Of a stretch of DNA of 64,000 nt, positions 25,993-60,460 are shown in pieces (the stretch's first letter is position 1; each line of letters begins with the position of its first letter). The translations under genes and the position numbers were made by a program. Below the pieces are notes generated by a model. That model was not told the DNA's origin. It was given only the letters and a program-made list of their open reading frames with translations, and did not search any database. The DNA is from Chryseobacterium indologenes (GTDB lineage: Bacteria; Bacteroidota; Bacteroidia; Flavobacteriales; Weeksellaceae): the NCBI RefSeq assembly GCF_018362995.1, contig NZ_CP074372.1, positions 1,488,001 through 1,552,000 on the forward strand, read 5' to 3'.

Positions 25993-26048
25993 AACCATCC
26001 CGTCAAAAATTCTTTGAATTTTTGCCACCCCTCCGGAAGGATGGGAAT
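25993..26048 (+). repeat. Solo copy of the DUF559-associated repeat (1)
   Basis: AACCATCCCGTCAAAAATTC, then TTTGAATTTTTGCCACCCCTCC and a GGAAGGATGGGAAT end. The same sequence frames the DUF559 nuclease gene at 59913-60460 and stands alone at 42509-42563. Contains two hairpins (AAAAATTC/GAATTTTT and CCCCTCC/GGAAGGATGGG). Confidence 0.7.
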
Positions 26049-34766: not shown

Positions 34767-34772
34767 GAGTTT

Positions 34773-36080
34773 ATGAAAAAAACTATAACCATATTATTTG
34801 CTTATTTATCAATATTTTCATGCAGCAGTTCAAACGATGATATTACGGAGGTGGTAACAGTAACACCTCCTGTTATTGAAAATAAGATCAATTTAACTTC
34901 AACTTACAGTGATACCACTGAAACAGTAAGCTTAAAATGGACGCTCAGTGGAGAGGCCACTTATAATCATTATAAAATTGTAAGAAGTGATTCTCAAAAC
35001 GGGGTACAATCCGAAATTGGTAATAGCTATCCGAATCAGTTTACATTTACTTCAGCCGTACCATTTAACCCTTATGTAGAATATCAGGTTATTGGTATTA
35101 AGGCTAATGGTGAAGAGGTTAAAAGTAACATTATAAAAATTGAAAGACCTGAGATTAAATTGATTAATCTTAAAACTTTTGATGCTCAATTTGATAAAAA
35201 TTCCGGAAAATTATATCTTTTAGATACAGATGGAAAAATTACTCTTTATGATGTGAATACTGGCTCAATTACCCATCAGGTCAGTACTAATGCTACTTTA
35301 GGATATTCTGATCTTGGGATTTATAATGGTAATGTAGAATTATATGTTCCCAGAAATGATGGCTGGGTAGATATTTATGACGGTAACGACTTGACATTAA
35401 AAGATCAGATAAGCTTCGGAATGCCTCTTATAAGTACTATTTATCACAATGGTAAGCTTTATGGCTCTCCGAATTCCAACAGTTCTAGTAGTTCCAACGT
35501 TATTAAATCAATAGACAGAACGACTAAGGTTCTAGTTTCTCAATCACCTAACAATTATTATTATACGGGAAGGATGAAAAAAGCTGTAGTGGGGAATTCT
35601 TTACAATTATATACCATAACACAGAATATTTCACCTGTAGATATGAACCTTTATACTTTTGATCTTAACGGTAATTATATCAGCCATCAAAGTGATTCTT
35701 ATCATGGAGACCACCCTCTTAATTATAGAATATTTGAAGCATTTCCTGATGGAAGAACTATTACTGCAAGTTCTGGTTCAGTATATAATTCGCAAATGAT
35801 TTACCAGAATGATCTGCCTTCTGGAAACTCTAAACTTTCAAGTTTTGATTTTGATAGCAACAGTATTATTGCAGGAAGTGGAAATAGAACTATTGAGTTT
35901 TACAACATCAATTCTTACACAAAAACCAAGACAATCAATACAAAGAAATACCCTTATAAAGTATTTAACTACAATAACAAGGTTGTTTGCGTAAGCTCAG
36001 TTACTCAGCTTAATCTTCAATATTATGATTATTCGGGAATCATTCCTGACAATATAATGATCGAAATTTTTGACAAATAG
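34773..36080 (+). CDS. Lipoprotein with FnIII-like and beta-propeller-like domains, 435 aa
   Basis: An exported lipoprotein (lipobox IFSC, Cys17). Residues about 40-125 resemble a fibronectin type III domain (ETVSLKWTLSGEATYNHYKIVRSD, YVEYQVIGIKANGEEV), and residues about 130-430 form repeats of about 45 residues (FDKNSGKLYLLDTDGKITLYDV, GNRTIEFYNINSYT) like a 6- or 7-bladed propeller. Probably surface-exposed or periplasmic; the ligand is unknown. It starts 6 bases after icd, but the codon use is more AT-rich, so functional linkage is doubtful. A terminator follows. Confidence 0.82.
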   Translation: MKKTITILFAYLSIFSCSSSNDDITEVVTVTPPVIENKINLTSTYSDTTETVSLKWTLSGEATYNHYKIVRSDSQNGVQSEIGNSYPNQFTFTSAVPFNPYVEYQVIGIKANGEEVKSNIIKIERPEIKLINLKTFDAQFDKNSGKLYLLDTDGKITLYDVNTGSITHQVSTNATLGYSDLGIYNGNVELYVPRNDGWVDIYDGNDLTLKDQISFGMPLISTIYHNGKLYGSPNSNSSSSSNVIKSIDRTTKVLVSQSPNNYYYTGRMKKAVVGNSLQLYTITQNISPVDMNLYTFDLNGNYISHQSDSYHGDHPLNYRIFEAFPDGRTITASSGSVYNSQMIYQNDLPSGNSKLSSFDFDSNSIIAGSGNRTIEFYNINSYTKTKTINTKKYPYKVFNYNNKVVCVSSVTQLNLQYYDYSGIIPDNIMIEIFDK

Positions 36081-36085
36081 TTATA

Positions 36086-36114
36086 AACCTCTCCTTAGTG
36101 AGAGGTTTTTTATT
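36086..36114. terminator. Terminator after the lipoprotein gene
   Basis: AACCTCTC pairs with GAGAGGTT over a 6-base loop, followed by TTTTTATTT. It may also serve the converging HxlR gene. Confidence 0.85.
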
Positions 36115-36116
36115 TA

Positions 36117-36455
36117 TTATTTTCCATCCTGCACAATTACTCTTCTATGCTCCCTACCCCATTTAATCATTTCCATAATAATGTTTCCAAAGGTTCTGCA
36201 GTATTCCGTGGGTTCATATTCTATTAAAACGGGAGTGTCGGGGTAAACGGTGCGTTTTAACAACTTGTTCAGTTCCATATCTTTCAGTTCTTTTGAAAGC
36301 ATTCTGGTGGTAATTCCGGGAATACTCCGTTCAATTTCCCTGAACCGTCTATTCCCGTTACAAAGCGAATTGATCACAGGAATTCTCCATTTTCCTCCGA
36401 TAAAGTAAAGGGTATCCTGTAAAGCTCTAAGTTCTTCTGTCTGATCTCTTTCCAT
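36117..36455 (-). CDS. HxlR-family transcriptional regulator
   Basis: A 112-residue winged-helix regulator: FIGGKWRIPVINSLCNGNRRFREIERSIPGITTRMLSKELKDME is the full MarR/HxlR DNA-binding core. The ATG at 36455 starts the family sequence MERDQTEELRALQDTL. Divergent from the SDR gene at 36556, which it most likely controls through the TGATA(C/T) repeats between the genes (36471-36525). Confidence 0.93.
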   Translation of the reverse strand: MERDQTEELRALQDTLYFIGGKWRIPVINSLCNGNRRFREIERSIPGITTRMLSKELKDMELNKLLKRTVYPDTPVLIEYEPTEYCRTFGNIIMEMIKWGREHRRVIVQDGK

Positions 36456-42508: not shown

Positions 42509-42563
42509 AACCACCCCGTCAAAAATTCTTTGAATTTTGCCACCCCTCCAGAGGATGGGAATG
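42509..42563 (+). repeat. Solo copy of the DUF559-associated repeat (2)
   Basis: AACCACCCCGTCAAAAATTC, TTTGAATTTTGCCACCCCTCC, then AGAGGATGGGAAT. Same order and almost the same bases as 25993-26048 and as the right end of the element at 59913-60460. Confidence 0.7.
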
Positions 42564-59798: not shown

Positions 59799-59848
59799 GG
59801 TTTAAGGTTTAAGGTTTAAGGTTTAAGGTTTAAGGTTTAAGGTTTAAG
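59799..59848. repeat. Heptanucleotide tandem repeat (GGTTTAA)n
   Basis: About seven copies of GGTTTAA upstream of hutU, between its start codon (59702) and the DUF559 element. No frame crosses it. Confidence 0.88.
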
Positions 59849-59912
59849 CAAAATTATTGAATCCGGATCTTTCACAATTTGATATTAATACTATATTTGA
59901 ATATACACACCT

Positions 59913-59972
59913 CAATTCCCCTCCCTGATGGGTGGATTTCAAAGTTATTAACTTTGAAAGACGGGGTGGTTA
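59913..59972 (-). repeat. Left inverted repeat of the DUF559 element
   Basis: Read on the minus strand: AACCACCCCGTCTTTCAAAG, then CTTTGAAATCCACCCATCA and GGGAGGGGAATTG. The outer 14 bases CAATTCCCCTCCCT (59913-59926) match AGGGAGGGGAATTG at 60447-60460 exactly as an inverted pair. Confidence 0.75.
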
Positions 59973-59987
59973 AAAATAAACACAATC

Positions 59988-60425
59988 ATGAAAGAAATTC
60001 TCACCACTATCACCGGAATTCTGATCTATAGGAATTTCGTTGAAAATCTGCCCTACAATCCCCATTTAAAAGTATTATTAAAAGAAAAACGCAAAGCCCG
60101 TATTATGGGTGAAGTAATATTCTGGAAGAAAGTTCGGGCAAAAAATTTTCATAAGATTGATTTTGACAGACAAAGGATTATTGGAAACTATATTGTTGAT
60201 TTTTATGTAAAAAATTTGGGATTAATTATAGAAATAGATGGTTCAAGTCATGATGAGAAAGAAGTTTATGATGGAATAAGACAGGAGTATCTGGAATCTT
60301 TAGGACTGTTAGTTTTCAGAATAAGTGATTTTGATGTGAGGAATAATCTGAATGTGGTGATGAGGGAGTTGGAGGATTTTATTGTATTGCATTATGGAAC
60401 CACCCCGTCTTCAAAAATTCTTTGA
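59988..60425 (+). CDS. DUF559 endonuclease-like protein, 145 aa
   Basis: A 145-residue protein of the DUF559 family, which has the Vsr/very-short-patch-type PD-(D/E)xK nuclease fold. The core reads EVIFWKKVRAKNFHKIDFDRQRIIGNYIVDFYVKNLGLIIEIDGSSHDEKEVYD with the metal-binding D and E-x-D of IVDF and IEIDGSSH, then RQEYLESLGLLVFRISDFDV. The C-terminal residues GTTPSSKIL are encoded by the AACCACCCCGTC repeat itself. The physiological substrate is unknown; DUF559 members are often found on mobile or repeat DNA. Confidence 0.87.
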   Translation: MKEILTTITGILIYRNFVENLPYNPHLKVLLKEKRKARIMGEVIFWKKVRAKNFHKIDFDRQRIIGNYIVDFYVKNLGLIIEIDGSSHDEKEVYDGIRQEYLESLGLLVFRISDFDVRNNLNVVMRELEDFIVLHYGTTPSSKIL

Positions 60426-60460
60426 TTTTTTGAATCCACCCCTCCGAGGGAGGGGAATTG
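60398..60460 (+). repeat. Right inverted repeat of the DUF559 element
   Basis: AACCACCCCGTCTTCAAAAATTC, TTTGATTTTTTGAATCCACCCC and TCCGAGGGAGGGGAATTG. The gene at 59988 ends inside it (stop at 60423-60425). Confidence 0.75.

Follow-up and report, generated by a model that had tools for sequence, protein, structure and literature searches.

A DUF559 nuclease gene framed by triplex-type inverted repeats in Chryseobacterium indologenes: a candidate two-part element

Do a small nuclease gene, the inverted repeats that frame it and the solo copies of the same repeat scattered around it belong to one genetic element? This question is raised by a unit at positions 59913 to 60460 of a 64,000-nucleotide stretch of Chryseobacterium indologenes DNA (GCF_018362995.1, contig NZ_CP074372.1, positions 1,488,001 to 1,552,000; hereafter the window), which lies on a single-contig chromosome of 5,008,467 bases (genome handle G000). 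The original prediction had proposed a new family of small mobile elements, in which a DUF559 nuclease plays the role that TnpA-REP proteins have for repetitive extragenic palindromic (REP) sequences. Our analysis favours, with a probability of about 0.6, a two-part element in which the DUF559 gene stands between predicted folding repeats, and its nuclease would act on the folds so that the unit and, on rare occasions, a repeat by itself is moved. It is likely a REP-like partnership, in which a nuclease of Vsr/homing endonuclease fold, not a REP-associated tyrosine transposase (RAYT), mobilises triplex-type repeats; the nuclease would likely spread the repeats, because the pairing of the two recurs across phyla, often inside housekeeping genes.

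The gene is an open reading frame (ORF) of 145 amino acids on the plus strand (59988..60425), flanked by a left terminal repeat (59913..59971, minus strand), which consists of an outer hairpin, an inner hairpin and a third G-strand on the gene side, and by a right terminal repeat (60398..60460, plus strand). These two form an inverted pair with a score of 27.7. The perfect 14-base inverted ends claimed in the original prediction were confirmed (59913-59926 is the reverse complement of 60447-60460), as were the longer imperfect inverted repeats (59913-59971 on the left, 60398-60460 on the right). The gene extends into the right repeat, as had also been claimed, since its nine last residues (GTTPSSKIL) and stop codon are read from 60396-60425; the right repeat thus codes for the C-terminus of the nuclease. 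By reading, the stems of the window repeats are CCCCTCC / GGAGGGG. In the right repeat, an outer hairpin of C-stem and G-stem is predicted at 60439..60455 by the single-strand DNA fold of the minus strand, and GGGGTGG on the same strand at 60400..60406 is, by reading, a candidate third strand of an intrastrand triplex, which mirrors the G-stem GGAGGGG with T replacing A (the underlying mirror rule was scored on repeat copies of other genomes).

The encoded protein belongs to PF04480 (E = 3.1e-24, 85.4 bits against a gathering score of 20.6) and is the only match to this family in the whole chromosome. Its predicted fold resembles homing endonuclease and Vsr, and in an alignment of 41 rows E42, E82, D84, H88, D95 and R98 of the nuclease core were invariant and D71 nearly so. 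The median ratio of non-synonymous to synonymous substitution rates (dN/dS) was 0.078 (285 pairs, 25 sequences from 22 genomes, three of them present twice; dS about 1.1, near saturation), indicating purifying selection on the gene. DUF559 matches with internal stop codons were found in G190, G185, G159, G071, G118, G194, G153 and G169; judged from these sequences, the gene is decaying in several genomes of the genus. Assignment to a known defence gene was rejected, PADLOC giving weak matches only (E of 7e-5 and 0.003).

Both solo copies named in the original prediction were recovered at 25993..26048 and 42509..42563 (ending at 42562 or 42563), intergenic and on the plus strand, with local alignment scores of 78 and 76 against 38 for the next place in the window. 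Chromosome-wide, a 60-nt consensus query (threshold E ≤ 1e-3, matches spanning 1.3e-20 to 8.9e-4) gave at least 39 matches, which include the right repeat of the unit and a second match on the opposite strand at the same place, leaving at least 37 solo places; this number is perhaps too low, as scoring covered 40 of 60 candidates. Under a crude ORF rule, 28 of the 29 solos examined were intergenic. The repeat had no match to a known RNA family of Rfam at gathering score in four sources. Telomere-like heptamers, (GGTTTAA)n or (CCCTAAT)n, adjoin the unit (window about 59805-59850) as well as solo copies; the same heptamers stand 3' of solos in relatives (e.g. L294 and L297), and their copy number differs among relatives. 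In G000 a 435-aa ORF occupies window positions 34767-36125, a place at which 13 of the 17 relatives compared have a solo (one more is decayed and three gave no match); a solo site was thus replaced or displaced.

The pairing of gene and repeat was surveyed in 36 genomes of the genus, G000 included. The repeat was present in 33 of them and a cognate DUF559 gene in 22 (E-values read by eye), all 22 of which carry repeats; candidate repeat counts were higher with the gene (median 40.5 vs 23, p=0.003), although these are first-look candidates and a loose measure. In a wider set, some DUF559 match was found in 116 of 173 genus genomes. The nuclease tree, from which L054, L055 and L128 of the 46 loci given were dropped as the script found no frame, separated 43 rows into two clades, one of 8 rows and one of 35, the latter holding all repeat-bearing rows (4 of the 35, L037, L045, L050 and L056, have no readable repeat type). 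The flank label (E, S or none) changed 5 times on this tree against a shuffled mean of 16.2 (label E alone: 4 against 14.0; label S: 2 against 5.8). In the repeat-linked clade, inverted flanks scored above 13.5 in 32 of 36 loci, and the same 32 were also above 15.3, the 99th percentile of 272 local control intervals (L050, at a contig end, was left out); in the other clade none of 9 loci did so, the best scoring 11.5. This second clade (L032, L033 and L122-L128, mostly MKKFKPNYDDGMWKG...; L128 is absent from the tree) is a natural control and perhaps a domesticated form of the nuclease.

The site of the unit itself can be followed among relatives, as its flanks were found in all 173 genus genomes. 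Of 30 loci examined there, 16 had the unit (including G000 and G169, whose gene is broken), 13 were empty sites of the kind that the original prediction had suggested looking for, and that of G117 had another insert. By reading, 10 of the empty sites retain a single hairpin, in which the left outer arm is joined to the right outer arm, 2 retain half and 1 none. The empty site L101 shows inner bases of the left repeat, therefore loss is favoured over a pre-insertion target; the hairpin kept at empty sites can be read either way as to target-site duplication. The orientation of the gene is reversed at this site in at least four relatives (G004, G008, G012 and G026). Across the genus the gene is for the most part passed on at a single locus, and solos outlast its loss.

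The original prediction had also suggested looking at element ends beside other DUF559 genes. We took the best 80 distant DUF559 loci from one scan, which come from Bacteroidota and, less often, from Pseudomonadota, Cyanobacteriota, Chloroflexota, Planctomycetota, Geobacter, a leptospire and Uhrbacteria. Inverted flanks beyond the 99th percentile of 13.5 (1732 control intervals in the same loci) were present in 51 of the 76 loci that could be scored, a proportion that is no fair estimate for the whole DUF559 family because the confirmation query is itself flanked; for one of the 51, L163, the match is a run of T and its meaning doubtful. Different repeats frame the gene in different lineages. 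Many of these flanks have the sequence CCCCTCTCC-loop-GGAGAGGGG-TTGGGGGTGAGG or a variant of it; this is the intrastrand triplex motif already published (TM; TMECO / PIT / boxC), described as C-stem, loop, G-stem, loop and second G-stem (PMC4666352). According to the same source, many TM copies are intergenic, they occur in inverted pairs and in numbers that differ among strains, one form has 3610 copies in 262 proteobacterial genomes, and single strands of the E. coli motif formed a triplex in vitro. In its main text, Holder 2015 reported no function and no tie to transposons, phages or plasmids, and the words DUF, endonuclease and Vsr do not occur there (PMC4666352).

The grammar of C-stem, G-stem and mirror-image third G-strand was then scored on 102 repeat copies from the 51 distant loci, 84 of which had the hairpin. 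Among these 84, the match of the third strand to the G-stem was 0.88 when read as a mirror image, against 0.77 for direct order and 0.64 for shuffled sequence, and of 36 asymmetric copies 31 favoured mirror order, none direct order and 5 were tied; the strand was chosen by mirror score, which favours the mirror rule somewhat. In genus repeats the second loop is predicted to form a hairpin, which keeps its pairing while its sequence varies freely (65 distinct middle-hairpin sequences averaged 7.0 consecutive pairs vs 2.5 when shuffled), and by reading the window repeat fits the TM grammar with this hairpin as its second loop. It shares with the motif of PMC4666352, as described there, the order of stems, many intergenic copies, inverted pairs and strain-variable number, and differs in the long second loop, which goes beyond the 1-6 nt loops searched there. 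The window repeat does not match the exact TMECO consensus (CCCTCNCCC N3-6 GGGNGAGGG N3 GGGNGAGGG), and a related TM pattern had no match in G000, which makes the repeat of the genus a divergent relative, not TMECO. On their sequence, then, the window repeats are not wholly new and belong with the published triplex motifs. Nor is the element family confined to this group. No paper linking DUF559 with triplex repeats was found in the openly licensed literature searched.

Many of the units stand inside genes. Stop-free frames of at least 300 aa enclosed 46 of the 80 distant loci, and inverted flanks were found in 29 of the 45 scorable long-frame loci and in 22 of the 31 other loci. All 15 long-frame loci picked for closer analysis join DUF559 with another family, the host family standing on one or both sides of it: RecG, class I tRNA synthetases (IleRS-like and LeuRS), UvrA, a UvrD-type helicase, an Lhr-type helicase, guanylate kinase, IspF (YgbB), chorismate synthase, GH31, an HMGL-like enzyme and an Eco57I-type methylase. 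In-frame copies in MetH and LeuRS also occur in the genus and the order. Against solved structures, the two host halves align as far as the first and onward from the second residue of the pairs 515/519 in RecG, 236/237 in LeuRS and 752/771 in MetH. In G183, the LeuRS gene carries an in-frame unit, and it is uninterrupted in 14 of 14 genus relatives. One MetH site is used in three loci of different lineages, and the MetH nucleases form two supported pairs and not one clade (in this tree several rows labelled 'free' are themselves inside genes, L150 being in MetH). No intein family was among the Pfam matches of the in-frame copies, where no intron search was made. By reading, DUF559 lies between the RecG motifs DEQHRFG and TATPIPRT in six Bacteroidota records (L167, L190, L197, L200, L212 and L219), of which L167 and L197 were also family-scanned.

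Gene and repeat also co-occur at the level of genomes. A TM pattern with 20 fixed bases was found in 61 of 395 Bacteroidota genomes, its reversed control in none, and DUF559 in 222 of the 395 when weak matches are included (E to 1e-3); DUF559 was present in 51 of the 61 genomes with TM vs 171 of the 334 others (Fisher p=1.3e-6, kinship ignored). One genome of 5.2 Mb, G464, has 147 TM matches and a single DUF559 match. In E. coli, the DUF559 gene is ycjD, and of 5426 genomes 3364 have it with a coverage of 80% or more. With the ycjD locus as query, the median number of matching places, the locus itself counted, was 23 in genomes with ycjD (n=37) vs 6 in those without (n=22, range 2-23; p=2.8e-9), in a comparison of 60 records spread over the ranking, from which one of plasmid size was dropped. 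In K-12, an exact TMECO match stands at 1351205-1351239, about 170 nt past the 3' end of ycjD, and by reading the last codons of the gene (RSPSP and stop) lie inside a decayed repeat copy, an arrangement like that of the window. Around K-12 ycjD no long inverted pair was found, its repeats all standing on one side. E. coli Nissle was rejected as a clean empty ycjD site because other genes stand where ycjD is missing.

Several observations weigh against a nuclease that moves these repeats. The 29 solos of G000 analysed by sequence are of a subtype without the TTC...GAA extension found in the unit's own repeats. No movement of a solo was seen: all 17 relatives compared have the first window solo at its place (some copies are decayed) and 16 of the 17 have the second, with a partial match in the remaining one, and no clean gain was found at three window sites or across 135 kb of synteny with G029, another species. 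Seven of the eight G000 solos in this synteny are shared with G029, one as a partial match, and the single solo missing from G029 sits in a rearranged stretch. Identity within six of the shared pairs is 93-98%, with gaps at 0-3 positions, and it is 63-92% over the aligned part of the neighbouring 60 nt, where gaps are mostly numerous; the repeats, better conserved than their flanks, could thus have a host function. Since their places are shared and the repeats outlast their flanks in conservation, the solos are old, fixed in place and maintained, so the solo mobility implied by the TnpA-REP parallel is not borne out. The expectation that solos occur only in nuclease-bearing genomes did not fully hold either: of the 14 genus genomes that lack the cognate gene, 11 have repeats, and gene presence was associated with repeat presence in the genus only at Fisher p=0.05; these 11 genomes and the unflanked second clade (0/9) are in part the findings that the original prediction had named as refuting it. 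The same holds more widely: 10 of the 61 TM-bearing Bacteroidota genomes lack DUF559, and E. coli without ycjD has repeats at up to 23 places. The cross-genome tests ignore phylogeny, and the query used to draw the 80 distant loci bears flanking repeats itself. Of the 76 scored, 25 lack inverted flanks above threshold, as do 16 of the 45 scorable long-frame loci, and the one LeuRS insertion analysed (G183) shows no target duplication, about 20 nt seeming to be replaced instead. As to the fold, double-stranded TMECO gave no triplex signals and in vivo footprinting gave no support to a stable triplex, according to PMC4666352.

Could another agent, or none, account for these repeats? In REP/RAYT systems a single nuclease gene lies in inverted hairpin repeats with many solos, is mostly single-copy and vertically inherited, and leaves orphan repeats after its loss. 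The unit shares all of these features, a nuclease gene framed by inverted repeats and accompanied by many solos being present in the window; its partner nuclease, however, is not an HUH (Y1) enzyme but PF04480, of PD-(D/E)XK / Vsr-EDxHD fold, its repeats are of triplex type, and DUF559 units also stand in frame inside genes. A RAYT-type Y1 transposase could nevertheless move the repeats with DUF559 as a passenger, as Y1_Tnp has 2 matches in the chromosome and is present in 31 of the 36 genus genomes. The repeat motif stands within about 500 nt of 35 of 36 genus DUF559 loci vs 0 of 14 Y1/RAYT-like loci (12 from the genus and 2 from the order; one has the motif 1.2 kb away), G010, G019, G023 and G035 have repeats without a Y1 match, G002 and G017 have weak Y1 matches only, and G003 and G033 have Y1 matches without repeats. 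With Y1 loci lacking a nearby repeat and presence in genomes mismatched, we reject RAYT as the mover, an explanation close to refuted and very improbable. The proximity of motif and DUF559, the other phyla and the insertions in genes uphold the partnership part of the TnpA-REP parallel. Separately, 13 Y1 transposase copies with strong scores are spread over many contigs of G012, a genus genome, and fall into two or three groups of near-identical members. Chance, namely a common C-rich palindrome on both sides of an unrelated gene, has in its favour how often short inverted repeats occur in two copies; repeat E-values reach 1e-20, 51 of 76 loci exceed the 99th percentile, the two genus clades differ at 32/36 vs 0/9 and the reversed pattern is absent from all 395 genomes, and by these flank, clade and reversed-pattern controls chance is rejected as of negligible probability.

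The strongest rival, which we nevertheless regard as unlikely, is that the nuclease is a homing endonuclease, cutting uninterrupted genes at specific sites so that break repair copies the unit in, with repeats as linkers or recombination substrates and solos as remnants. Against it, units in the genus mostly stand between genes at a single inherited locus, the MetH nucleases form two supported pairs instead of one clade, and a conserved grammar of hairpin and third strand would be unneeded for homing. I-Bth0305I, an EDxHD homing endonuclease, and Vsr differ from the present system in that the DUF559 gene is framed by triplex-type repeats, and no intron or intein was seen around DUF559, its in-frame copies resembling internal protein domains. 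Less probable again is that the repeats are host elements with their own function (e.g. transcription ends or chromosome structure), the nuclease being a Vsr-like repair enzyme that trims folds and the framing arising from insertion-prone hairpins. This would agree with repeats conserved beyond their flanks, with their fixed positions, with 28 of 29 solos being intergenic and with the dN/dS of 0.078. It would also agree with Caulobacter VsrA (CCNA_02930), a protein with a DUF559 domain and a Vsr-like predicted fold, which drives the SOS response in a methyltransferase mutant and is treated as a possible mismatch-repair enzyme (PMC12907096); the domain and fold are those of the window nuclease, whereas flanking repeats are unmentioned in the available text of that source. 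Units inside LeuRS, MetH, RecG and other genes are left unexplained by a host function, as are framing repeats that are specific to lineages.

In the two-part element that we favour, a repeat exposed as a single strand, for instance at a replication fork, would fold, the Vsr/EDxHD-fold nuclease would cut beside the folded repeat, and host repair or annealing would put the freed strand at another exposed site. With repeats that lack an in-frame stop, an intragenic insertion would stay open and may be tolerated in loops. Rickettsia palindromic elements are palindromic repeats inserted in frame in proteins, and terminal inverted repeats are typical of miniature inverted-repeat transposable elements; the present unit resembles the former in its in-frame insertion and the latter in its inverted ends, but carries its own nuclease and has no DDE transposase gene inside. 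A wider version, which we hold only tentatively and at odds short of even, is a pan-bacterial selfish element, whose Vsr/homing-fold PD-(D/E)XK nuclease would recognise triplex repeats, enter essential genes in frame like a non-splicing intein, and be the source of thousands of TM/PIT/boxC copies, including those of E. coli via ycjD.

Triplex-type repeats are common in bacteria, and their maker is not named in the openly licensed papers searched; a nuclease partner would make them a testable system, in E. coli K-12 as well. If true, a partnership of the REP kind would rest here on an unrelated nuclease fold, and the copies standing in frame in LeuRS, IleRS, RecG and MetH would represent an unusual life of a selfish gene inside essential proteins. 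The label of DUF559 would then shift from 'unknown function' to that of a candidate mobile-element nuclease.
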